DNA of 10,000 nucleotides from contig NZ_JAIWOF010000175.1 of assembly GCF_020217025.1 (NCBI RefSeq), positions 1-10,000 on the forward strand, written 5' to 3'. The notes beneath the pieces were generated by a model. It searched no databases. It was not told the DNA's origin and saw nothing but the letters and a program-made list of their open reading frames with translations. A program made the position numbers and the translations under genes. The stretch comes from Flavobacterium sp. Its GTDB lineage: Bacteria; Bacteroidota; Bacteroidia; Flavobacteriales; Flavobacteriaceae. Position 1 is the first letter of the stretch. The number at the start of each line of letters is the position of its first letter. Shown here piece by piece: positions 1 through 10,000 of this stretch.

Positions 1-527
1 CCGATTTATTAAGTCAAGCCGAACACGGAAAAGACAGCCAAGTGATTTTGGTTACCATCAATAAAAACATTTTAAACGATGTTGAAGAAGAAATTTATAA
101 ACAATTGAAAGATCTTCCAAGACAAGAAATTGCGCAAGTGGCTATTAATGATTCCAAATTAATCTTTGTTGAAACCGAAAAAACCGCTTTATCGTTAATT
201 AATGAATATGGTCCTGAACATTTTATTGTATGTTCTAAAAACGAAGACTATTTCGTTGACGGAATTCAAAATGCGGGTTCGATTTTTATTGGAAATTATA
301 CTCCAGAAAGCGTTGGCGATTATGCTTCAGGAACTAATCACACTTTACCAACAAACGGCTATTCCAAAAGTTATAGCGGTGTAAATCTAGATAGTTTCTT
401 AAAAGCGATGACCTTTCAAAAAATATCAAACGAAGGAATTCAAAATATCGGAAAAGCAATAGAAATCATGGCAGAAGCCGAAGGTTTACAAGCACACAAA
501 AATGCTGTTTCATTAAGATTAAAATAA
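1..527 (+). CDS. hisD: Histidinol dehydrogenase, C-terminal part (5' end outside window)
   Basis: HisD oxidises L-histidinol to L-histidine in two NAD-dependent steps and is a cytoplasmic zinc enzyme. The open frame is already running at base 3 and reads DLLSQAEHGKDSQVILVT, a typical HisD stretch, so the GTG at 42 is an internal codon and not the start. Visible family hallmarks are the YGPEHF segment with the catalytic Glu-His pair, AGSIFIGNYTPESVGDYASG with the zinc-ligand Asp in GDYASG, NHTLPTNG, and the late EGLQAH histidine, which is the other expected zinc ligand. About 174 residues are present of a family length near 430. It stops 5 bases before hisC, which indicates co-transcription. 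Identity is secure; only the N-terminal part cannot be assessed. Confidence 0.96.
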   Translation, partial: DLLSQAEHGKDSQVILVTINKNILNDVEEEIYKQLKDLPRQEIAQVAINDSKLIFVETEKTALSLINEYGPEHFIVCSKNEDYFVDGIQNAGSIFIGNYTPESVGDYASGTNHTLPTNGYSKSYSGVNLDSFLKAMTFQKISNEGIQNIGKAIEIMAEAEGLQAHKNAVSLRLK

Positions 528-532
528 GAGTT

Positions 533-1594
533 ATGAATTTAGAAAATATAATTAGAGAAAACGTTAAAAAACTGAGTCCATATTCCTCAGCACGCGATGA
601 ATTTGAACAGTTCACAAAACCAATGATCTATTTGGATGCCAATGAAAATCCGTTCTCGAATGGTATGAATCGTTATCCAGATCCGCAACAGAAAGAATTG
701 AAAGCAATAATTGCAGATAGAAATAATGTACCTAAAGACAACATTATCTTAGGTAACGGAAGTGATGAAGTCTTAGATTTGATTTTCAGAGCCTTTTGTG
801 AACCAAATCGCGATAATATCATCACACTACCACCAACGTATGGAATGTATGGGGTTTTAGCGAATATCAATGCCATCGAAAATCGTGAAGTATTGCTAAA
901 TGAGGAATTTCAACCGAATGTAGAAGCGATTCTAAATGCTGTGGATAACAATACAAAAATCATTTTTTTGTGTTCGCCAAACAATCCTACAGGAAATTCT
1001 TTTACAGATTCATCGGTAATTAAAATTCTGAATCAATTCAAAGGTTTAGTAGTAATTGATGAAGCGTATATCGATTTTTCAAAAGATGAAAGTTGGTTAA
1101 GTGTTTTAAAAGATTTTCCTAATTTGATTATCACCCAAACCTTATCAAAAGCGTATGCGATGGCGGGATTGCGAATCGGAATTTTGTATGCTTCAAGAGA
1201 AATTATTGCGGTTTTGAATAAAATTAAGCCACCTTACAACATTAATGGTTTGTCGCAAGAAACTGCTGTCAAAAAATTGTTGCAAAGTACCATGCCAACG
1301 CAAGTTAGAAAAATACTAATCGAACGAAATAAACTCATCGAAGCACTTTCAAAATGCGAATTTGTCGAGAAAATATATCCTTCGGACGCCAATTTTATCT
1401 TAATTAAAGTGGATGATGCGAACTTTAGATACCAACAATTTATCGAAAATGGAGTAGTGGTTCGCAATAGAAGCAATCAACCTTTATGCGAAAATTGCTT
1501 GCGAATTAGTATTGGAACCAAAGAAGAAACCGAACAAATTATGGAATTATTAAAAACCTTCAACAATGTCGAAAAGAGTATTATTTATCGATAG
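533..1594 (+). CDS. hisC: Histidinol-phosphate aminotransferase
   Basis: HisC is a PLP enzyme that transfers the amino group of glutamate to imidazole acetol phosphate, giving histidinol phosphate. The 353 residues match the usual length of about 350. Fold-type I aminotransferase landmarks are in order: LDANENP (34-40) near the N terminus, SPNNPTG (148-154) with the PLP-contacting Asn, VIDEAYIDF (174-182) with Asp176 for the pyridine nitrogen and Tyr179, [14 protein letters not shown] (203-216) with Lys206 as the expected Schiff-base lysine and Arg214 for phosphate, and LRISIGT (323-329) with Arg324 for the substrate carboxylate or phosphate. The ATG lies 5 bases after the hisD stop. The last 29 bases overlap the start of hisB in another frame, which suggests translational coupling. 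No key residue is missing. Confidence 0.97.
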
Positions 1595-2705
1595 AGATGG
1601 AACTTTGGTTTTAGAACCAGAAAATTACCAATTAGACAGTTTAACCAAACTAGAATTCTATCCAAAAGTATTTCAATTCTTGAGTAAAATTGCCAAAGAA
1701 TTGGACTTCGAATTGGCAATGGTTACTAATCAAGATGGTTTAGGGACCGAAAGTTTTCCGGAAGAAACGTTTTGGCCAACCCAAAATTTCATCCTGAAAG
1801 CATTTGAAAATGAAGGTATAACATTTGACGAAATTTTTATCGATAAAAGTTTTCAAGAAGACAATGCACCAACCAGAAAACCTAGAACAGGAATGTTAAC
1901 CAAGTATTTGAACAATTCGGAATATGATTTGGAGAATTCTTATGTAATTGGCGATAGAATTACCGATGTGGAATTGGCTAAAAACTTAGGTTCTAAAGCA
2001 ATTTTTATCAAAAACGAAGAGAATTTGGGCGGAAACGAAATTGCAACTTCATTGGAAGAACTCCAAAATGTAATTACTTTACAAACAACCGATTGGCAAA
2101 AGATCTACGAGTTTTTGAAATTGGAGGAAAGAACAGCTTCTATCAAAAGAACCACAAATGAAACCGATATCGCTATCACTTTAAATTTAGATGGAACAGG
2201 AAAAAGCAAAATCAACACCGGAATTTCCTTTTTTGATCACATGTTGGACCAAATTGCGCGTCACGGACAAATGGATTTGGATATTCAAGTGAAAGGCGAT
2301 TTGGAAGTTGATGAACACCATACAATTGAAGATACAGCAATTGCATTGGGCGAAGTTTTTGCAAAAGTGCTAGGTAACAAATTAGGCATCGAACGTTACG
2401 GTTTTTGTTTGCCAATGGACGATTGTTTAGCGCAAGTAGCGATTGACTTTGGAGGAAGAAATTGGTTGGTTTGGGAAGCAGAATTCAAACGTGAAATGAT
2501 TGGTCAAATGCCAACCGAAATGTTTTTTCACTTCTTCAAATCGTTCACAGATGGTGCAAAAGCGAATCTAAATATCAAAGCTGAAGGCACAAACGAACAC
2601 CACAAAATTGAAGCCATTTTCAAAGCCTTCGCAAAAGCTATAAAAGTTGCTGTAAAACGCGATACAGAAAAAATGATTTTACCTTCAACAAAAGGAATGT
2701 TATAA
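1566..2705 (+). CDS. hisB: Bifunctional histidinol-phosphatase / imidazoleglycerol-phosphate dehydratase
   Basis: This is a two-domain HisB of 379 residues. The N-terminal HAD-type phosphatase (about 1-165) removes phosphate from histidinol phosphate. It shows DRDGT (9-13) with nucleophile Asp9 and acid/base Asp11, the motif II threonine in MVTNQ (Thr54), Lys105 in RKPRTGM, and GDRITD (129-134). The C-terminal IGP dehydratase (about 188-379) has FFDHML (222-227), DEHHTIED (249-256) and EHHKIEA (344-350), whose histidines and glutamates bind the two Mn ions. The order matches the E. coli fusion. Unlike E. coli HisB, the loop before RKP (about 91-104) has no cysteines, so the structural zinc site of the phosphatase domain appears to be absent. 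The start at 1566 puts DRDGT at the usual distance from the N terminus. The stop shares one base with the hisH start (TAATG). Confidence 0.97.
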
Positions 2706-3286
2706 TGAAAATAGCTATAATTGATTACGGAGCTGGAAATGTTCAAAGTGTTTTATTCGCTTTGGAACGACTTGGCTTTGAAGGAATTGTCACTAATGAT
2801 TGGAATACTATTAAGACAGCTGATAAAGTAATTTTTCCTGGTGTAGGTGAGGCGAGTAGTGCTATGAAAATGTTGGTTGATAGTGGATTAGATGTGTTGA
2901 TTCCAACCTTAAAACAACCAGTTTTGGGAATTTGTTTAGGAATGCAATTGATGTGTAAACATTCAGAAGAAGGCAATACCAACGGATTAGGAATTTTTGA
3001 TGTGAATGTGGTGAAGTTTTCATACGAAGTGAAAGTCCCACAAATGGGTTGGAATACCATTTATAATTTAAAATCGTCATTATTCTCAGGAATTAAAGAA
3101 GATGAATTCATGTATTTGGTACATAGTTATTATGCACCATTATCTGAAAATACGATTGCTTCAACGAATTACGAACATGAATATAGTACCGCATTACAAC
3201 GTGATAACTTCTTCGGAGTACAATTTCACCCTGAGAAAAGTGGCGTGTTTGGAGAACAAATTTTGAAAAACTTTTTAAACCTTTAA
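2705..3286 (+). CDS. hisH: Imidazole glycerol phosphate synthase, glutaminase subunit
   Basis: HisH hydrolyses glutamine and passes the ammonia to HisF through a channel; together they make IGP and AICAR. The 193 residues form a class I glutamine amidotransferase. DYGAGN (7-12) opens the domain, FPGVGEA (44-50) forms the oxyanion strand region, GICLGMQ (75-81) carries the nucleophile Cys77, PQMGWN (112-117) is the HisF-interface segment, and QFHPEKS (173-179) supplies His175 and Glu177 to complete the triad. The ATG overlaps the hisB stop by one base, a strong sign of coupled translation. Its partner hisF lies two genes downstream with hisA between, a common his order. Nothing is missing. Confidence 0.97.
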   Translation: MKIAIIDYGAGNVQSVLFALERLGFEGIVTNDWNTIKTADKVIFPGVGEASSAMKMLVDSGLDVLIPTLKQPVLGICLGMQLMCKHSEEGNTNGLGIFDVNVVKFSYEVKVPQMGWNTIYNLKSSLFSGIKEDEFMYLVHSYYAPLSENTIASTNYEHEYSTALQRDNFFGVQFHPEKSGVFGEQILKNFLNL

Positions 3287-3297
3287 TTTTTAAAATA

Positions 3298-3362
3298 GGA
3301 ACACAGATTTAAGAAATGAGAAAAATTTTAATAATTTCTTCAATTTTAACAATCTGCGTTCC
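3298..3362. repeat. Intergenic palindrome between hisH and hisA
   Basis: The 91-base gap contains nested inverted repeats. The outer arms are GGAACACAGATT (3298-3309) and AATCTGCGTTCC (3351-3362), pairing 11 of 12. The inner arms are AAGAAAT (3311-3317) and ATTTCTT (3334-3340). In RNA this would be a long, interrupted hairpin just before the hisA start. No T-run follows, so a terminator role is unlikely. Similar short palindromes are often scattered between genes in flavobacteria; a copy-number search of the genome would confirm a dispersed element. Confidence 0.6.
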
Positions 3363-3381
3363 AAAAAAATATGCAAAATGA
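3316..3381 (+). CDS. Possible 21-codon ORF coupled to hisA (doubtful)
   Basis: An ATG at 3316 opens 21 codons starting [15 protein letters not shown] and ending in a TGA that overlaps the hisA ATG as ATGA. The hydrophobic N terminus resembles a signal sequence. It lies entirely over the palindrome at 3298-3362 apart from its 3' end, so it may be an accident of AT-rich repeat sequence. The ATGA overlap is the only feature that argues for translation, as a coupling ORF for hisA. I consider it unlikely to make a functional peptide. Confidence 0.15.
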
Positions 3382-4103
3382 GAATAATCCCAGCCATAGA
3401 TATCATCGAAGGAAAATGCGTCCGACTTTCCAAAGGCGATTACGATACGAAGAAAATATACAATGAAAATCCGCTTGAAGTTGCAAAATCCTTTGAAGCA
3501 CATGGAATTCAGTATTTGCATTTGGTTGATTTAGACGGAGCCAAATCAAGCCGAATTGTGAACTACAAAGTTTTGGAACAAATTGCTTCAAAAACGAGTC
3601 TAAAAATCGATTTTGGTGGCGGTTTAAAATCTTATGCCGATTTGAAAATTGCTTTTGAAAGTGGCGCCAATCAAATCACAGGTGGAAGCATAGCTATCAA
3701 ACAGCCAGAAGTTTTCAAGAATTGGATTCTACAATATGGAGCTGATAAAATTATTTTGGGTGCTGATGCAATGAACGAAAAAGTAGCGATTTCAGGTTGG
3801 TTGGAAGAATCAAATGAAGAAATAATTCCGTTTATTCAAAATTATCAGAAAGAAGGTATTCAATACGTTATTTGCACCGATATTTCAAAAGACGGCATGC
3901 TAGAAGGACCAAGTTTTGAATTATATCAAAGAATTTTGGAACAAACCAAACATGTAAAACTAATCGCTTCAGGAGGAATTTCAACTTTCGATGAATTACC
4001 CAAGTTAGCCGAATTAGGTTGCGAAGGAACCATCATTGGAAAAGCCATTTACGAAGGTAGAATAACTTTAAAACAATTAGAAAATTATATTATTAATAAG
4101 TAA
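3378..4103 (+). CDS. hisA: ProFAR isomerase (phosphoribosylformimino-5-aminoimidazole carboxamide ribotide isomerase)
   Basis: HisA converts ProFAR to PRFAR by an Amadori rearrangement, supplying the substrate of HisH/HisF. The 241 residues are a complete (beta/alpha)8 barrel. IPAIDI (4-9) carries the first catalytic aspartate, Asp8. HLVDLDGA (48-55) follows. DFGGG (78-82) is a phosphate loop, LGADA (127-131) carries the second catalytic aspartate Asp130, [12 protein letters not shown] (167-178) is the substrate loop, and ASGGIS (197-202) with IIGKAIYEG (219-227) form the second phosphate site. The half-barrel duplication typical of HisA/HisF is evident. The ATG at 3378 places IPAIDI at residues 4-9, the expected spot. 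The upstream gap holds a palindrome and no clear promoter, so it is probably transcribed from upstream. Confidence 0.96.
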
Positions 4104-4105
4104 AA

Positions 4106-4160
4106 AGCGATAAGTAAATACTAAAAAGTTTGTAAAGCTAATCACTTTTCACCTATCACT
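4106..4160. repeat. Degenerate palindrome and 9-base direct repeat between hisA and hisF
   Basis: Most of the 69-base gap is repetitive. Arms AGCGATAAGTAAATA (4106-4120) and TTTTCACCTATCACT (4146-4160) are complementary at 11 of 15 positions. The right side also holds two copies of CTAATCACT (4138-4146 and 4159-4167), 21 bases apart, plus CTATCACT (4153-4160). It looks like a decayed member of the TAATCAC-type palindromes scattered in flavobacterial intergenic DNA. A regulatory role is possible but nothing in the sequence shows one. Confidence 0.4.
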
Positions 4161-4172
4161 AATCACTAAATC

Positions 4173-4928
4173 ATGCTTACAAAAAGAATCATTCCCTGCT
4201 TAGATATCAAAAACGGACGAACCGTTAAAGGTGTCAACTTTGTGGATTTAAAAGATGCTGGAGATCCTGTGGAATTAGCAAAGAAATACGCTGAAACCGG
4301 TGCAGATGAACTTGTTTTTCTAGACATTTCCGCTACAGAAGAACGTCGCGCGACATTAATCGATTTGGTTAGAAAAGTGGCAGCTGCAATTAATATTCCG
4401 TTTACTGTTGGAGGTGGTATTTCTTCTGTTGCGGATGTGGATGTTTTGCTTCGCAATGGCGCGGATAAGATTTCTATTAATTCTTCCGCCGTTAAAAATC
4501 CTGATTTAATCAATGAAATTACAGCAAAATATGGAAGTCAGTGTGTTGTTGTGGCTATCGATGCCAAACAAATTGATGGTGATTGGATAGTTCATTTAGT
4601 TGGCGGAAAAGTTCCTACGAAATTGAATTTATTCGATTGGGCAAAAGAAGTCGAGCAACGCGGTGCTGGTGAAATTTTGTTCACATCCATGAATAACGAT
4701 GGAACTAAAAATGGTTTTGCCAATCAAGCGTTAGCCAAGTTATCCGAAATCGTAAATATTCCCATAATCGCTTCTGGTGGTGCGGGAACTATGGAACATT
4801 TTGCAGAAACATTTATCAATGGAAATGCAGATGCCGCTTTAGCTGCCAGTGTTTTTCACTATCACGAAATCGAAATTCCTGAATTAAAACAGTTTTTAAT
4901 AAATCAAAATATCTTAGTAAGATTATAA
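4173..4928 (+). CDS. hisF: Imidazole glycerol phosphate synthase, cyclase subunit
   Basis: HisF takes PRFAR and ammonia delivered by HisH to form imidazole glycerol phosphate, with AICAR returning to purine synthesis. It has 251 residues, the normal length, and a (beta/alpha)8 barrel. Visible landmarks are [16 protein letters not shown] (5-20) with catalytic Asp11, FLDISAT (49-55), TVGGGI (78-83), VVVAIDAK (125-132) with catalytic Asp130, [14 protein letters not shown] (169-182), and IIASGGAG (198-205). In the loop at 173-176 many relatives have MDRDG where this protein has MNNDG; Asp176 is kept, so activity is not in doubt. The ATG follows a palindromic gap of 69 bases. It is separated from its partner hisH by hisA. 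Confidence 0.96.
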
Positions 4929-4932
4929 AATT

Positions 4933-5062
4933 AAACACATAGACACATAGGTTGATAGTTTTTCTTTTTAGAAGATTATAGCATTACATTTTACACATAG
5001 CTATGAGAGCTATATAAAGTTAACGCCTTACAATTTATTAAAAACTATGTGACTATGTGTTT
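4933..5062. repeat. MITE-like 130-base element with 18-base terminal inverted repeats
   Basis: The hisF-hisIE gap is almost filled by an element whose ends are AAACACATAGACACATAG (4933-4950) and CTATGTGACTATGTGTTT (5045-5062), complementary at 17 of 18 positions. An additional internal pair is ATAGTTTTT (4955-4963) and AAAAACTAT (5040-5048). A small hairpin lies in the middle (ATAGCT 4997-5002, AGCTAT 5008-5013). It has no coding capacity. No target-site duplication is obvious beyond AT-rich flanks. The structure fits a non-autonomous mobile or REP-like element fixed inside the operon. As it is transcribed it would fold into a long hairpin, and so could affect mRNA stability or hisIE translation. 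Confidence 0.7.
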
Positions 5063-5078
5063 CAAAAAAACAACAATC

Positions 5079-5678
5079 ATGAAAGTAAACTTCAATAAAA
5101 CCCCAGACAACCTTATCCCAACTATCATTCAAGACAACGAAACGAAAAATGTTTTAATGTTGGGCTACATGAACCAAGAAGCTTTAGATCAAACGTTGGC
5201 AACTAAAAAAGTGACCTTCTTCAGTCGTACAAAAAACCGATTGTGGACAAAAGGCGAGGAGAGTGGCAACTTCTTAGAACTGATTTCTATTAAAGAAGAT
5301 TGCGATAACGATACACTTTTAGTGAAAGTAAAACCTGTTGGTCCAACTTGCCACACAGGTTTAGATACATGTTGGCAAGAAACTAATAATCAGGAATTTG
5401 GGTTTTTATCAAAATTAGAAAACACCATTGCAAAACGTAAAGAAAATGCTGATGCAGAAAAGAGTTATGTGGCTTCCTTATTTGCAAAAGGAATTAATAA
5501 AATAGCCCAAAAAGTAGGTGAAGAAGCGGTTGAAGTAGTCATTGAAGCCAAAGACAACAACGACGATTTGTTCTTATCCGAAAGTGCTGATTTATTGTTT
5601 CACTATTTTATTTTATTGCAAGCGAAAGGTTTTCAATTAAAAGATGTGGTGGAAGTTTTGAAGGGAAGGGAGAAGTAA
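5079..5678 (+). CDS. hisIE: Bifunctional phosphoribosyl-AMP cyclohydrolase / phosphoribosyl-ATP pyrophosphatase
   Basis: This fused enzyme performs steps 2 and 3 of histidine synthesis: HisE hydrolyses PR-ATP to PR-AMP, and HisI opens the adenine ring. Counting from the ATG at 5079 gives 199 residues. The HisI domain (about 1-108) has MLGYMN (27-32), FSRTKNRLWTKGE (48-60), DCDND (74-78) with Mg-binding aspartates and zinc ligand Cys75, and PTCHTGLDTCW (89-99) with zinc ligands Cys91 and Cys98. The HisE domain (about 109-199) has KVGEEAVEVVIEA (145-157) and ESADLLFHY (168-176) with the metal-binding acidic residues. An in-frame GTG at 5049 would add 10 residues, but they are encoded by the terminal repeat of the 130-base element, so ATG 5079 is the better start. 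It is the last his gene here. Confidence 0.96.
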   Translation: MKVNFNKTPDNLIPTIIQDNETKNVLMLGYMNQEALDQTLATKKVTFFSRTKNRLWTKGEESGNFLELISIKEDCDNDTLLVKVKPVGPTCHTGLDTCWQETNNQEFGFLSKLENTIAKRKENADAEKSYVASLFAKGINKIAQKVGEEAVEVVIEAKDNNDDLFLSESADLLFHYFILLQAKGFQLKDVVEVLKGREK

Positions 5679-5700
5679 TTTATTAGTTTCTTCTCTTCCC
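5670..5700. terminator. Possible shared terminator hairpin between convergent genes
   Basis: GAGAAG (5670-5675) can pair with CTTCTC (5690-5695) across a 14-base AT-rich loop, with two further G-T pairs and the nearby GGGAAG/CTTCCC able to extend the stem imperfectly. It overlaps the last codons of hisIE and of the convergent membrane-protein gene, only 4 bases apart. It could serve both strands, but there is no strong T-run on either side, so the call is tentative. Confidence 0.3.
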
Positions 5701-6258
5701 ATTCTCTTGTTCAAATTGTTTGGCTTTATATTCTTGAATTTCCTTTTGAATATTTTCATCTTGAGGATTTTCTTGTTGTTTTAAATAAAGTTCTCGCAAT
5801 TCAGGTTCATTAGCATAATAGTGATTAATTAAAACACTATTGGGTAAAAGTAAACAAATCATTGCTAAAACAAATATGACAACAGTTCTTGTAAATAAGT
5901 TTTTGTGATAATTTTTTAAATCTTCATCTGATTTTTTTAATAATGAAAAACCTGCTAATAGTAAAACTGCTGCTGACATACAACCAACAAGCAACATTAC
6001 TTGTGAACCTGGCCAAAACATCAGTTTAAATTCAATACCAATTATAGCTATAGACAACAACCATCCAAATAATATTGAAATACCAATTTTTTGATTTTTA
6101 AAATTTTTGTCACTAAAAAAATAAAATCCAAAAGGGAAATAACACAAAGCTAAAAATGTTAACGATAAAACCATTAAAACTCCAGCTCCAGGCCAATGCA
6201 TTAGCTTGAAAATTAGCGAAATAATAAATACGATTGATAATGCTTTTTCTGTTTTCAT
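5683..6258 (-). CDS. Membrane protein with duplicated HWPG(A/S) motif, function unknown
   Basis: I do not recognise a named gene. The 191 residues contain about five hydrophobic helices (roughly 4-20, 25-48, 58-76, 86-107 and 123-143), then a charged, Gln/Glu-rich tail (150-191) probably in the cytoplasm. A motif at the end of helix 1, FKLMHWPGA (17-25), recurs 60 residues later at the end of helix 3 as FKLMFWPGS (77-85). This indicates an internal duplication of a two-helix unit plus a fifth helix. The same F-K-x-x-HWPGA signature is found in many Bacteroidetes membrane proteins, including GldL-type gliding/type IX secretion proteins, but this one lacks the GldL layout and is not called as GldL. 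It lies 5 bases downstream of the 231-residue membrane gene and is probably co-transcribed with it. Confidence 0.8.
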   Translation of the reverse strand: MKTEKALSIVFIISLIFKLMHWPGAGVLMVLSLTFLALCYFPFGFYFFSDKNFKNQKIGISILFGWLLSIAIIGIEFKLMFWPGSQVMLLVGCMSAAVLLLAGFSLLKKSDEDLKNYHKNLFTRTVVIFVLAMICLLLPNSVLINHYYANEPELRELYLKQQENPQDENIQKEIQEYKAKQFEQENGKRRN

Positions 6259-6263
6259 GGATA

Positions 6264-6959
6264 TTATTTTTTTAGATTATTTTTAATTATTTGGACAATC
6301 TCTTGATGATTTGCATTATATTCATTTAGTCTTACAGTAAAGTGACCTCTTGTTAGGGTAAAAACCATTAAATCAAATTGAGTGGATTTACCCGGTATAA
6401 TATAAATCCCAAATCTATAAATTTCATTCCAAAAGATTTTATTTTCTTTTATTGTTATTCCTTCATTATCAATTTCAATCTTTTTAATTACTTTTTTTGG
6501 AAAAAAAATAATGTAAAGAACAATTACAATAAGGATTATCATTGAAATTTTTAAATTAAAATCATCGCTAAAGCTTTTAACTAGATTATAAATAAGAGCA
6601 ATAAATAAAATACTAATTAAGAAATAATGATCATTAAAATTTGATTTATAAATTTTACCATCTTGATAATTTATCATGCAATTATCAAACTTTTCAGATT
6701 CTTTAAAATATGGATTTCCAATAAAATCATTAAATTCTTCACTTAACTTACTAGTATATTCATATTCAATATTAAAATCAATTTGTTTTTGAAGTTTTTC
6801 TTTTTGATTAATATCAATTATAAAATCACTACAGGTTTCTTTAAAATCTGCTATTTCATTAGATAAATTACAAATCAAGCCTTTGTTTATATCAAAACTT
6901 TTATTTTTGCAAACTAAACAATATGATAGATGAAAATTTCTATAATATCCTGATTTCAT
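6264..6959 (-). CDS. Membrane protein with N-terminal four-Cys knuckle and C-terminal PH-like region, function unknown
   Basis: The 231 residues fall into three parts. Residues 14-43 hold four cysteines in a regular pattern (Cys14, Cys17, Cys30, Cys43: C-x2-C-x12-C-x12-C) within CLVCKNKSFDINKGLIC and a following ADFKETC, which resembles a short zinc-binding knuckle seen at the N terminus of many Bacteroidetes proteins. Two adjacent membrane helices follow at about 112-129 and 137-153. The remainder (about 157-231, KKIEIDNEGITIKENKIFWNEI and onward) is strand-rich and looks like a bacterial PH-like domain. Both soluble parts would face the cytoplasm. No signal peptide is present. The DNA is visibly more AT-rich than the his genes: bases 6541-6600 have 12 G+C of 60, while 4321-4380 in hisF have 26 of 60. 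Function cannot be assigned. Confidence 0.78.
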   Translation of the reverse strand: MKSGYYRNFHLSYCLVCKNKSFDINKGLICNLSNEIADFKETCSDFIIDINQKEKLQKQIDFNIEYEYTSKLSEEFNDFIGNPYFKESEKFDNCMINYQDGKIYKSNFNDHYFLISILFIALIYNLVKSFSDDFNLKISMIILIVIVLYIIFFPKKVIKKIEIDNEGITIKENKIFWNEIYRFGIYIIPGKSTQFDLMVFTLTRGHFTVRLNEYNANHQEIVQIIKNNLKK

Positions 6960-6982
6960 ATTTAAATTGAGTGTAAATTCTC

Positions 6983-7061
6983 ACAAATATATCCAAATTT
7001 CCCCAAAAATTCTTCCCTAAAATAAAAATTCAAGATGAAATTTCACGTGAAAAAAAATTAA
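6983..7061. repeat. Left copy of a flanking direct repeat, with a vestigial thioesterase start
   Basis: This intergenic stretch resembles 9387-9467. From ACAAATATA to AAGATG (6983-7037 against 9387-9443) about 45 of 57 aligned columns agree, with one 2-base gap. The match continues weakly into eight codons from ATG 7035 that read M-K-F-H-V-K-K-N then stop at 7059-7061; the real thioesterase gene starts M-R-F-H-T-R-K-W. It therefore looks like a decayed duplicate of the thioesterase upstream region and start. AT-rich promoter DNA can look alike by chance, so homology is inferred, not proven. A 12-base palindrome TTTCACGTGAAA (7041-7052) lies within it. Confidence 0.45.
6984..6991 (-). promoter_or_regulatory. 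Bacteroidetes -7 box for the 231-residue membrane protein gene
   Basis: On the minus strand this reads TATATTTG, matching the Bacteroidetes primary sigma -7 consensus TAnnTTTG. It ends 24 bases before the ATG at 6959, giving a short leader of about 20 bases. No convincing -33 TTTG at 17-23 bases upstream was found, so the match is partial. Confidence 0.45.
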
Positions 7062-7080
7062 AACCAAAAAAATAAAACAT

Positions 7081-8577
7081 TTAATCTAATGCTTCAATTT
7101 GCTTTAAGTGTTGTTCTACTTGGTATTTATTAAAATTATCCCAAGTAGGTGGACTAGTTGTTTTTTGCCCCCACATAGCATCTATACAAGTGTTGTTTTC
7201 CTTGTATTTGTCATGTAATATGGCTAGAATTTTAAAGAAAAATTCATCGAGTTGTTCGATTGCATTCAGCTCTGTTTGTAAATTATTACTTTCATCTGTG
7301 GTATCAAAAAGTTGTAACACCTCTAAAACAGCTTGCTTTTCTTCTTCATTAATTTTGGTTTCAAAACCATGTTTCAAGGATTTAAAAACTAAATTATTCC
7401 AAACCACACTATCGTGTCCCCAAGTAACATTTGGAAGATGCAATGAGTGCTCGCAAATCAAAACAATTGCTAATAATACGTCGTTTAAATAACTAGATGG
7501 GAATTCGTCAAAACTTCTAAATTCAAATCCACTTTGATACATCTTTTCCAGATTAAAATCAAGACCAATATCTTCTAATAAGGCATAATCTAGCGTAGAT
7601 TCTATTTGATCGCGCCACCAAATATTTTCTTCTTTAGTAAATTTCAAAAGTTTTCTAAACTCATCAACTTTATAAGTTAGAATTTTACCTTTCGCCATCA
7701 CTTTGTTAAATGTACCAACTCCAGTGTATCGCGACATCGCATTTCTCATTGAACCACCTGCGAATTTTTCATTCAAATGATATTTTTTGCTAATTACTGC
7801 CATTATATCAGGACTGCCTAATGTAGTAATAAAAAAAGGTTCAAACCATTGTAGCAAATAGATAGCGTTGCTGTGAATTGCTTCAAAACTTGGATAATCT
7901 ATAATTCTACTATTTTGGGTAAGCGTTGGCAATGTAAGATGAAAATGATAGGTTCCGTTATTAAACAGCACAAGATTTTCTTGGTTCGACATAAACCTAT
8001 TGATTCCCATGTTGTATTTAGGAAAATTTAATTTTTCAGCAAGAACACCTGATTCATTAATTTTATCAATGAATAATTGTTTTGTTGCTTTAAGTTCCTC
8101 ACACGAATCCGTGATGGTTCTATTTTCAAAATATTTTGTTACAAATTCAATCGAATCGCCATCAAAATTCACAGCTCCCATGGGATTGTTTTTTTGAGTC
8201 AACATGCTTTGAATGTTATACGGCTGGCTTTCTAAAAAAACTTCAACTATTGATTTTCCTTGATATTCAGGATTATCAACTAAAGGTTTTGTATTAGGTA
8301 ATGTTTTATGTTGAAAGTTAAGATCTAATTTATCAAGAGAATGACTGTTCATCATTCTGCTTACTTTGTAATTTTTATTTTTATCAAAAGCTGTTTCTAA
8401 AAGAGTGGATAAAGTTCCTTCTTTGTAACAGGTTCTGTAATCAATACTGTAGCGTTCGCAACCCATTTTTTCTTGAATAAATGATCCTGAAACTATGCTC
8501 GATTCTTCAAATTGCATATAAGTTTCATTTTCTAATCCTATTCCCCAGTAATACGTTTTTTTCTGATTTAATTTCAT
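7081..8577 (-). CDS. Putative carboxylate-amine ligase (GCS/glutamine synthetase-like superfamily)
   Basis: The motifs in this 498-residue protein, in their order, match ATP-dependent carboxylate-amine ligases of the glutamate-cysteine ligase/amidoligase superfamily, which join a carboxyl and an amine through an acyl phosphate. WGIGLENETY (11-20) fits the first strand with metal-binding Glu16 and Glu18 (family form GxExE). FDGDSIEFVT (138-147) fits the next acidic strand with Glu144. GTYHFHLTLPT (208-218) gives the paired His211/His213 strand. LLQWFEPFFITTLGSPD (241-257) matches the conserved helix LxxxEPxxxxxxGSP. SMRNAMSRYTGVGT (276-289) is basic and probably contacts phosphate. FEFRSFDEF (351-359) supplies Arg354 and Asp357. 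There is no signal peptide or membrane segment, so it should act in the cytoplasm. It lies 38 bases downstream of a putative cysteine peptidase gene and is probably in its operon. The substrates are unknown and I cannot name a gene. True glutathione synthesis is possible but less likely, given the peptidase partner and divergence. Confidence 0.7.
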   Translation of the reverse strand: MKLNQKKTYYWGIGLENETYMQFEESSIVSGSFIQEKMGCERYSIDYRTCYKEGTLSTLLETAFDKNKNYKVSRMMNSHSLDKLDLNFQHKTLPNTKPLVDNPEYQGKSIVEVFLESQPYNIQSMLTQKNNPMGAVNFDGDSIEFVTKYFENRTITDSCEELKATKQLFIDKINESGVLAEKLNFPKYNMGINRFMSNQENLVLFNNGTYHFHLTLPTLTQNSRIIDYPSFEAIHSNAIYLLQWFEPFFITTLGSPDIMAVISKKYHLNEKFAGGSMRNAMSRYTGVGTFNKVMAKGKILTYKVDEFRKLLKFTKEENIWWRDQIESTLDYALLEDIGLDFNLEKMYQSGFEFRSFDEFPSSYLNDVLLAIVLICEHSLHLPNVTWGHDSVVWNNLVFKSLKHGFETKINEEEKQAVLEVLQLFDTTDESNNLQTELNAIEQLDEFFFKILAILHDKYKENNTCIDAMWGQKTTSPPTWDNFNKYQVEQHLKQIEALD

Positions 8578-8615
8578 TTATTTAAAATGGCTTGGTAACG
8601 TAATTAATATTAATT

Positions 8616-9353
8616 TTATTCATGATAATAGAAAACATGTGACGAATAACGTTCATGGTTCCACCAATCTTTTCTTGCTTTTGAAAAGTAGTTGTAATTT
8701 AATTTTCCGGCTTGTGATTGCAACGGATAAACGACTTTGCCATTTTCTCGATAAGCTTTTCTTTTGCCGGTTTCTGGAACAATTGGTACAATATGTCCAG
8801 AAAGACCAACAATTTTTCGCTTGGCACAAATGATTCCAACACCTCCTTCTGTATTCACTTTTTCTTGAATTTCATCAAGATTTGTCATTTTTTTCCATCC
8901 AAAACTTGGACCCCATTTTTGAAACCAATCATGAATGGCACTAGAGTAGATAGGGAGCACCGTTTCATTAAAAACAGGAACTACATCTTCTCCGTTTTGC
9001 AACTTTGCAATGGATTCATCTGTCCACCAAACGGTTGGCAAATAAACTTGAGAAAAATAACAAAAATCAAAGGAATACACATTACAATAAGTGTCTTCAA
9101 CAGTTCGTTGATACCTCTCACTCTTAGAGACATCTAATTTATCAATAAGTTTTCGAATACTTTCGCGTTTGGTAGTTGCATCCGTTAAGTCCCTTAAAGG
9201 GATACTTGAATCACTCATTGGATGAAATTTTGCTAAAGCAGTATCTAATCGTGAATCGGGATGTACTAATAAAATAGCACCTTTTATAAGTTCATCAGAT
9301 TTAGCATCTTTGACAAACGTTAGTGTGTTGGTTTCTATACTTTTTTTATCCAT
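8616..9353 (-). CDS. Putative cytoplasmic papain/NlpC-P60-fold cysteine peptidase
   Basis: The 245-residue protein has a charged helical N-terminal region (about 1-85) and a C-terminal region that looks like a papain-type amidase. The likely nucleophile is Cys90 in DTYCNVYSFDFC (87-98), at the start of a helix followed by YLPTVWW (104-110). A Trp-rich stretch follows (WFQKWGPSFGW, 143-153). Then GGVGIICAKRK (170-180) and GLSGHIVPIVPETG (183-196) form the strand pair with the expected catalytic His187. PLQSQAGKLNY (210-220) resembles the late QAG motif of related hydrolases and may give a polar third residue. No signal peptide or lipobox is seen, which is unusual for a cell-wall hydrolase and suggests a cytoplasmic peptide or isopeptide substrate. 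It is the first gene of a two-gene unit with the putative amide ligase. The fold is inferred from motifs only. Confidence 0.62.
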   Translation of the reverse strand: MDKKSIETNTLTFVKDAKSDELIKGAILLVHPDSRLDTALAKFHPMSDSSIPLRDLTDATTKRESIRKLIDKLDVSKSERYQRTVEDTYCNVYSFDFCYFSQVYLPTVWWTDESIAKLQNGEDVVPVFNETVLPIYSSAIHDWFQKWGPSFGWKKMTNLDEIQEKVNTEGGVGIICAKRKIVGLSGHIVPIVPETGKRKAYRENGKVVYPLQSQAGKLNYNYFSKARKDWWNHERYSSHVFYYHE

Positions 9354-9387
9354 TTTACCAATATTTCAGTCAATAGCTAAATGTGAA

Positions 9388-9395
9388 CAAATATA
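9388..9395 (-). promoter_or_regulatory. Bacteroidetes -7 box for the peptidase-ligase operon
   Basis: On the minus strand this reads TATATTTG, the same octamer as the box at 6984-6991, and ends 34 bases before the ATG at 9353. It fits TAnnTTTG. A -33 element is not clear. It lies inside the right copy of the flanking repeat and faces away from the thioesterase gene. Confidence 0.45.
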
Positions 9396-9417
9396 CCTAA
9401 CTTTTACTAAAAATTCC

Positions 9418-9425
9418 TATCTTTA
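9418..9425 (+). promoter_or_regulatory. Weak -7 box for the thioesterase gene
   Basis: TATCTTTA matches TAnnTTTG at all but the last position and lies 15 bases before the ATG at 9441. The resulting leader would be very short (under about 12 bases). No -33 element stands out. Tentative. Confidence 0.25.
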
Positions 9426-9440
9426 AAATAAAAATTGAAG

Positions 9441-9830
9441 ATGCGATTTCATACCAGAAAATGGGTAAAACCCGAAGATTTAAATGCCAACGGAACACTA
9501 TTCGGAGGTAAATTATTGGCTTGGATAGATGAAGAAGCTGCTTTGTATTCCATCGTACAATTGGAAAATCCTAAAGTAGTTACCAAGTTTATGAGTGAAA
9601 TTAATTTCATGAGTGCCGCCAAACAAGGCGATATTGTGGAAATTGGTTTAGATGTGGCGCATTTCGGAAAATCATCGTTAGTATTAAAATGCGAAGTTCG
9701 TAACATGATGACACGCGAAAAAATCATTACGATTGATAATATCACGATGGTAAACTTAGGCGAAGACGGAAAACCAAAACCACACGGTAAAACCCAAATC
9801 GAATTTATTGAAGACCGATTGAAAAAATAA
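9441..9830 (+). CDS. Acyl-CoA thioesterase, hot-dog fold (YciA/BFIT-like)
   Basis: Hot-dog thioesterases hydrolyse acyl-CoA to free acid and CoA in the cytoplasm, usually as hexamers. The 129 residues show the family pattern: LNANGTLFGGKLLAWIDEEAA (14-34) with the Asn and the conserved Asp30 at the start of the central helix, VVTKFMSEINF (46-56), GDIVEI (63-68) for the strand after the helix, and HFGKSSLVLKCEV (74-86). The C-terminal GKPKPHGKT (110-118) is also common in bacterial relatives. A TTG six bases upstream would add two residues, but ATG 9441 is preferred. The gene stands alone between the divergent peptidase operon and a palindrome. Acyl-chain preference cannot be read from the sequence. 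Confidence 0.88.
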   Translation: MRFHTRKWVKPEDLNANGTLFGGKLLAWIDEEAALYSIVQLENPKVVTKFMSEINFMSAAKQGDIVEIGLDVAHFGKSSLVLKCEVRNMMTREKIITIDNITMVNLGEDGKPKPHGKTQIEFIEDRLKK

Positions 9831-9841
9831 TTATCTTGTGT

Positions 9842-9910
9842 TGTCAAGCTGAACTCGTTTCAGCTTCTAAATCAATCATTAAAAGATTCTGAAACAAGTT
9901 CAGAATGACA
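9842..9910. repeat. Intergenic palindromic repeat, possible terminator for the thioesterase gene
   Basis: Two 27-base arms (9842-9868 and 9884-9910) are complementary at 22 of 27 positions around a 15-base loop. The core of each arm is CTGAACTCGTTTCAG and CTGAAACAAGTTCAG. This TGTCA-flanked CTGAACT-GTTTCAG palindrome is a familiar dispersed intergenic element in flavobacteria (from memory, not a search). It begins 11 bases after the thioesterase stop and could end its transcription, although no T-run follows. Confidence 0.7.
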
Positions 9911-9926
9911 AAATTGCTATTTAACT

Positions 9927-10000
9927 ATGATAAATAAATCAACTTTAGAATTTCTAACAAAACTTAAAGAAAACAACGACCGCGATTGGTTTGCGGCAAA
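9927..10000 (+). CDS. DUF2461-type protein, N-terminal fragment (runs off the window)
   Basis: The frame starts at ATG 9927 and is open to the window end: MINKSTLEFLTKLKENNDRD then WFAA. The pattern FLxxLxxNNxRxWF is the usual beginning of DUF2461 (TIGR02453) proteins of about 220 residues, whose function is unknown. Only 24 codons are visible, so the family call rests on this opening motif. It lies 16 bases after the palindrome and 96 bases after the thioesterase stop. Confidence 0.7.
   Translation, partial: MINKSTLEFLTKLKENNDRDWFAA

Follow-up and report, generated by a model that had tools for sequence, protein, structure and literature searches.

The stretch of Flavobacterium sp. DNA analyzed here (contig NZ_JAIWOF010000175.1, positions 1 to 10,000; this whole 10,000-nucleotide stretch is called the window) carries two adjacent genes, A and B, which form a self-contained two-gene cassette and are retained together. 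In its fold and its catalytic strand motifs, A corresponds to the ATP-dependent carboxylate-amine ligases, and B is a member of a papain-like family that is otherwise found in phages and in wall-lytic fusion proteins. By analogy with known enzymes we consider it a serious possibility, if not quite an even one, that the two proteins act as opposing ligase and amidase on one gamma-glutamyl-type amide. The features of the cassette are the following:

7081..8577 (stop codon included), minus strand: A, predicted carboxylate-amine ligase of the glutamine-synthetase fold, 498 amino acids (open reading frame, fold, motifs)
8616..9353 (stop codon included), minus strand: B, probable papain-like, lysin-type hydrolase, 245 amino acids (open reading frame, relatives)
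8578..8615, minus strand: B-A gap of 38 bases, B upstream of A
8524..8538, minus strand: A residues 14-18, GLENE (GhExE motif, strand 1)
8146..8163, minus strand: A residues 139-144, DGDSIE (acidic residues located ahead of and within a putative core strand)
7939..7947, minus strand: A residues 211-213, HFH ([HD]x[NH] motif, strand 4)
7507..7524, minus strand: A residues 352-357, EFRSFD (Ex[RK]x2D motif, strand 6)
9084..9086, minus strand: B Cys90, presumed nucleophile
8793..8795, minus strand: B His187, presumed general base

Fold, motifs and pairing of A and B

The translated reading frame of A contains the motifs GLENE, FDGDSIEFVT, HFH, EPFF..GSP, SRY and FEFR in this order. The original prediction for this DNA had described this order, the sizes of both proteins, the short gap and the position of B upstream of A on the same strand, and all of this agrees with the reading-frame output. 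It had also placed A among the glutamine-synthetase-like ligases. The predicted structure of A (predicted local distance difference test, pLDDT, 61.5; built, like that of B, from 10 sequences) shows a glutamine-synthetase-type fold, with PafA and Dop among the matches, and the motif series recurs in relatives, which supports this placement. The series GhExE - DGDxxE - [HD]x[NH] - ExRxx[DE] was kept in all 120 close relatives listed (668 found) and in 119 of 120 listed relatives (679 found) from a second assemblage, called here the L012 side, whose 120 listed proteins include a bacterial subgroup (L012 subgroup). Thus, 239 of the 240 listed relatives carry the full series.

When the motifs were placed on the predicted structure, GLENE, starting at Gly14, fell within strand 9-19. 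Asp139, Asp141 and Glu144 were invariant in alignments of 10 and of 24 sequences; Glu144 lies in predicted strand 143-146, and the three acidic residues are probably located ahead of and within a core strand. His211-Phe-His was found in strand 208-221, and this motif reads HxH in 120/120 of the listed relatives on the side of the window and HxN in 119/120 on the L012 side. Glu352-FRSFD occupies strand 351-356, and the final aspartate of Ex[RK]x2D was present in 120/120 window-side and 115/120 L012-side relatives. Arg278 and Arg283, candidates for the arginines expected on core strand 5 and in the loop preceding it, were also invariant in both alignments, and both are located in a low-confidence stretch of the model (255-349). 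Comparison with the relative L016 gave nonsynonymous/synonymous rates (dN/dS) of 0.049/0.60 for A and 0.034/0.51 for B, and these low values indicate purifying selection on both genes.

Searches of Pfam, NCBIfam, PADLOC, PHROGs and PDB with the A and B sequences returned only weak rows (E at least 0.082). No Pfam match to GCS2 (PF04107) above the cut-off was obtained for A or for 24 of its relatives, and a search of genome G000 with the PF04107 profile did not recover A. When PDB was searched with profiles of A relatives, the best E-value in one run was 0.16. The best row of the other run, an interferon (E 0.0013), covered only profile positions 359-451, a helical stretch, and was taken as a chance match. 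No relatives of A were found in phage records or plasmids. A shares its fold and the strand motifs described in PMC2588565 with the superfamily of GCS2/YbdK, GCS1, GS, PafA and Dop, but it is reached neither by the GCS2 Pfam model nor by profile comparison, it carries large insertions and its partner B is new.

In B, a cysteine precedes a histidine with papain-like spacing (Cys90, His187). Both residues were invariant across 13 aligned sequences, phage ones included, and the surrounding series CN..GHI..PE..QSQAG was kept in 120/120 of the B relatives listed (633 found). The original prediction of a papain-like protein with this residue pair is supported by these data, although less firmly than the assignment of A, since the model of B is poor (pLDDT 49.9): in the fold comparison the top match, the type VI secretion system (T6SS) amidase Tae1, was weak. 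Of what that prediction expected of the pair, the glutamine-synthetase-like fold of A and the co-occurrence of the two genes held, and the papain fold of B was matched only weakly. Neither B nor its profile gave strong hits to known families: no match above the cut-off was seen for the Pfam and NCBIfam families of the NlpC/P60-CHAP-Tae1 group, and a PDB search with profiles of B relatives gave an E-value of 0.16. B of the L012 type reached Peptidase_C39_2 at E 0.12, which is under the Pfam cut-off, and carries an N-terminal SH3_3 domain above it. Inspection by eye revealed no export signal in B.

The relatives of B point to a lytic kinship. The B-family domain occurs in GH19 and SH3 fusion proteins and on 17 IMG/VR contigs (L167-L183); on the phage side, the copy of L174 lies near a holin and that of L183 ahead of a tail sheath gene. 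Two phage records matched B (25.6% identity, E 4e-5). The domain on the IMG/VR contigs matches no PHROGs family and therefore seems to represent a phage lysin-type family that is not yet listed. The B of the window is not part of a phage lysis module; chromosomal genes and A flank it.

The link between A and B that the original prediction had suspected was confirmed across genomes. Among 100 related genomes, A and B were present in the same 13, all of them among the 61 Flavobacterium-type genomes of this set. A scan of one genome per species yielded 151 relatives of A, 80 of which were kept, and B adjoined A in 79 of these loci (one B was cut by the contig end); at the exception, L052, only 246 bases are available upstream. 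When three sister-group loci were added, A was present in 83/83 and B in 81/83 loci, and both misses (L052, L090) are at contig ends. The genome sets of the A and B scans overlap, and these counts are not independent. In the subgroup of the window, B precedes A on the same strand, but in the L012 subgroup the genes point toward each other. Pair-bearing laboratory strains include Flavobacterium saccharophilum DSM 1811 (L033) and F. pectinovorum DSM 6368 (L071). In the single-contig genome G035, A (2.73 Mb) and B (3.07 Mb) lie about 334 kb apart, and neither contains internal stops.

No third gene accompanied the pair with comparable regularity. The runner-up family of neighboring reading frames of at least 80 amino acids occurred in 19/83 loci, and reading frames of 28-79 amino acids within 2 kb recurred in at most 35/83; the commonest groups of these small frames fall between B and A and occur on both strands, a pattern to be expected from conserved DNA. 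No wall-synthesis gene recurred beside the pair in the 83 loci. The gene contexts were numerous and chromosomal in appearance, and for this variety we rejected the possibility that the pair is the passenger of a prophage. The lack of a recurring neighbor argues against a dedicated tag gene nearby; such a gene may possibly be located elsewhere in the genome. One locus (L020, CP034120.1) is titled Glaciecola amylolytica; its copy of the pair is 80% identical, its neighborhood has families in common with the Fluviicola-type loci L019 and L024, and the title may misfit its organism.

Tree conflict and CaaX-bearing relatives of A

The two proteins differ in their phylogenies. In the B tree (38 rows; L109 was dropped for lack of a reading frame with the pattern, and L173, L175 and L182 were left out for lack of any reading frame), the two bacterial subgroups that carry the pair form a single clade (100/100) that excludes the phage and fused forms. 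In the unrooted A tree, which was calculated from 63 hand-picked rows and contains long branches, that of L166 being the longest, the subgroup of the window is one clade, in which Flavobacterium sasangense and F. tibetense are the rows closest to the A of the window, and the L012 subgroup is nested in the second assemblage. Forcing both bacterial A subgroups together cost 32.1 log-likelihood units (approximately unbiased test, AU, p 0.00023); the reason for testing this grouping was that B accompanies A in both subgroups, but the choice was made once the A tree was known. On the plain reading of these trees, one bacterial subgroup would have swapped its A with the second assemblage and kept its B. 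An exchange of A under retention of B would lend further support to the idea that B needs an A. Two L012-type matches of A (L099, L100) contain one TAA within the matched stretch, which may be merely the gene end.

The second assemblage has a property that the relatives on the side of the window lack. A cysteine at position -4, as in a CaaX box (CCIIS, CCVIS, CNII and the like), was present in 76 of the 120 listed L012-side relatives (P0241-P0360), compared with about 3 of 120 expected from the local cysteine content, and none of the 120 listed window-side relatives had such a box. CaaX prenylation is a eukaryotic process that anchors proteins to membranes, so that the CaaX-bearing relatives of A probably act in eukaryotic cytoplasm. 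One member of this group (P0295) is named 'viral metagenome' by UniRef, which is a catch-all taxon.

Scanning IMG/VR for A gave a single locus, L166, of which 9,998 of 25,598 bases were examined. Here, a Pif1-UDG fusion and a ribonucleotide reductase small chain are encoded beside the A protein (2568-5303). This protein begins with MGC, which we take to be a possible myristoylation site, and its C-terminal part matches AlaDh_PNT_N (E 1.8e-13) and, in PDB, the L-lysine-forming saccharopine dehydrogenase (3ugk, E 1.8e-27). The assignment of the CaaX group to viruses is based on this one contig, the one 'viral metagenome' protein and the CaaX boxes. Part of the group probably stems from giant viruses, but this need not hold for all of it, and part of it could be eukaryotic. 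A search of the open-licence PMC literature (titles and beginnings of abstracts) found no paper on the B-A pair or on CaaX-bearing relatives of A.

The gap and the genes around the pair

In most Flavobacterium loci examined, the B-A gap comprises about 430-620 bases of conserved, non-coding DNA (e.g., L028:5572-6003 and 23 other loci), and this long gap is missing from the window. The long gaps contain a promoter-like site, TTG..TANNTTTG, and a leader of about 300 bases ahead of the TATAAATG start of A. Rfam gave no match over the gathering score for the window and four loci. A strongly structured RNA was rejected, as RNAalifold returned only -2.65 kcal/mol for 24 loci; in this fold 4 of 15 pairs showed a kept double change. 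A tag gene in the gap was likewise rejected, since ten loci had no conserved reading frame there and the small frames lie on both strands.

The other genes of the window are listed below:

before A and B, plus strand: end of a hisD-type gene, then hisC-, hisB-, hisH-, hisA-, hisF- and hisIE-type genes, named by eye
9435-9830, beyond B: 4HBT thioesterase
6264-6959, minus strand: reading frame of 231 amino acids
5683-6258, minus strand: membrane-type protein of 191 amino acids

The 231-residue frame belongs to a region of about 22% G+C that separates A from the his genes and varies in content among close relatives; the frame reached the Pfam family E1_UFD at E 7.7e-4, under the cut-off. The membrane-type protein matched GldL_N above the Pfam cut-off (E 8.3e-10); its gene adjoins the his genes, and no gliding-motility operon surrounds it in the window.

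Proposed function and competing explanations

Several characterized or predicted systems resemble the pair in part. Uncharacterized ligases of this fold are fused to a papain-fold domain (e.g., Rv2566) or adjoin a GAT-like thiol peptidase (PMC2588565). These cases share with A and B a partner of the thiol-peptidase type and the lack of a Pup-like gene; going by the descriptions, they differ in that a transglutaminase-like papain domain is fused to the ligase or a glutamine-amidotransferase-like peptidase serves as partner, whereas here the partner is a separate lysin-type papain-like protein. The group that described them reportedly predicted more such ligase/peptidase pairs in an amidoligase survey of 2009. 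As a working analogy, the glutathionylspermidine synthetase/amidase (GspSA) appears to fit best, since it opposes an amide ligase to a papain-like amidase, as we propose for A and B. The ligase half of GspSA is an ATP-grasp enzyme. Both of its halves reside in one protein, whereas A has the glutamine-synthetase fold and a gene of its own, and B lacks a match to CHAP, the type to which PMC10318531 assigns the GspSA amidase. With Tae1/Tse1, the NlpC/P60-CHAP amidases and phage endolysins, B shares the Cys-His order and the weak fold match, but it reaches no Pfam or PHROGs family, and in the window it is chromosomal and tied to A.

According to our proposal, A would activate a carboxylate, in all likelihood of the gamma-glutamyl type, at the expense of ATP and would join it to an amine, and B would hydrolyze the same class of amide. 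A soluble gamma-glutamyl or muropeptide-like compound would be made by one member of the pair and broken down by the other. Tae1- and NlpC-type enzymes, the nearest fold relatives of B, cut the gamma-D-Glu-diaminopimelate (DAP) amide of peptidoglycan. The fold relatives of A make gamma-glutamyl amides (PMC2588565). Together with the fusion to a lysine-forming enzyme seen in one protein, these reactions suggest that the bond is a gamma-glutamyl amide and the amine lysine-like. A broader version, which we regard as rather doubtful, is that A represents an undescribed ligase family shared by Bacteroidota and giant-virus-like genomes, that the virus/eukaryote side bears host-read lipid anchors (CaaX, one MGC), that a soluble bacterial and a membrane-anchored viral ligase run the same gamma-glutamyl/lysine-type chemistry, and that in Flavobacterium a phage-type lysin domain has been domesticated as the strict partner of A, a pairing that outlived a ligase swap with the virus-like pool.

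Several points weigh against the make-and-break proposal. Neither A nor B has a known enzyme activity, and their opposed action on one bond is something we infer. Confidence is middling for the A model and poor for that of B. Comparison by hhalign of A relatives (91 sequences, later 127) with 25 GCS2 proteins gave no significant match (8 of 33 GCS2 loci had been dropped, as the motif filter found no reading frame). L166, the sole virus-like A locus that could be read, contains no B. Moreover, the depupylase Dop is a hydrolase of the same fold, so that the fold alone does not prove ligase activity of A.

This last point leads to the idea that A is a Dop-like hydrolase or a binding protein and that B is the sole maker or breaker of the bond. 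PafA and Dop have a common mechanism and catalyze different reactions, according to PMC7947786. However, A has kept the canonical ligase motif Ex[RK]x2D in strand 6 (ExRx2D), whereas the PafA family has [QH]x4D (PMC2588565), and we judge a Dop-like A to be quite improbable. Even less credence is due to protein tagging, in which A would ligate a small tag to proteins and B would mature or remove it. The fold matches of A do include PafA and Dop, but no Pup-like gene was found near A in the 83 loci, no third gene exceeds the recurrence given above, and the small reading frames recur only in the gap leader, which the window lacks. With a strand-6 motif unlike that of PafA and lytic kin of B as well, the peptide or isopeptide tag pathway of the original prediction is not supported.

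The lytic kinship suggests other roles. B may be a peptidoglycan-lytic effector or bacteriocin-like lysin directed at competitors, with A protecting the producer or arming B by acting on wall precursors or on B itself. This fits the occurrence of the B family in phage lysis and tail regions and in GH19/SH3 fusions, its top fold match, and the presence of TssC, a protein of the Bacteroidota T6SS (T6SSiii), in 6/20 pair-bearing but 0/20 pair-free genomes (unmatched sets). On the other hand, TssC (PF17541) was not found in 14/20 pair-bearing genomes, including the single-contig G035 and G044, nor in G000 (92.75% complete), and for this reason a T6SSiii effector was rejected as general explanation; PF05943 had no match in 40 genomes and seems to be the wrong family for them. 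In addition, B shows no export signal by eye, and A is large, has intact motifs and may be as remote from B as in G035. To our knowledge, immunity proteins are unlike such an enzyme. Taken together, we consider an effector role unlikely. Alternatively, the pair might remodel wall precursors of its own cell, or muropeptides that are being recycled: A would attach an amino acid or an amine to a precursor's glutamyl carboxylate, and B would trim the stem peptide in the cytoplasm. The peptidoglycan-type kinship of B, the SH3_3 domain of its L012 type and the apparent lack of an export signal are in line with this, but no wall-synthesis gene recurs beside the pair, and its presence in only 13/61 Flavobacterium-type genomes speaks against core wall metabolism. 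This explanation, too, appears improbable to us.

The lysin kinship of B, the conflict between the two trees and the CaaX-bearing sister group of A were beyond the reach of a single window. Glutathione, glutamine and pupylation all depend on ligases of the fold of A, and a new ligase family whose hydrolase partner is strictly retained suggests that a so-far-unknown amide compound exists. Should the CaaX-bearing relatives be viral, the same enzyme would occur in common freshwater bacteria and in giant viruses, which would direct it to the membranes of their hosts, and phage lysin domains would be tied to cytoplasmic metabolism. If the joint bacterial and viral interpretation is true, the pair would represent a new system for making and breaking amides, one that spans the divide between bacteria and the viruses of eukaryotes.
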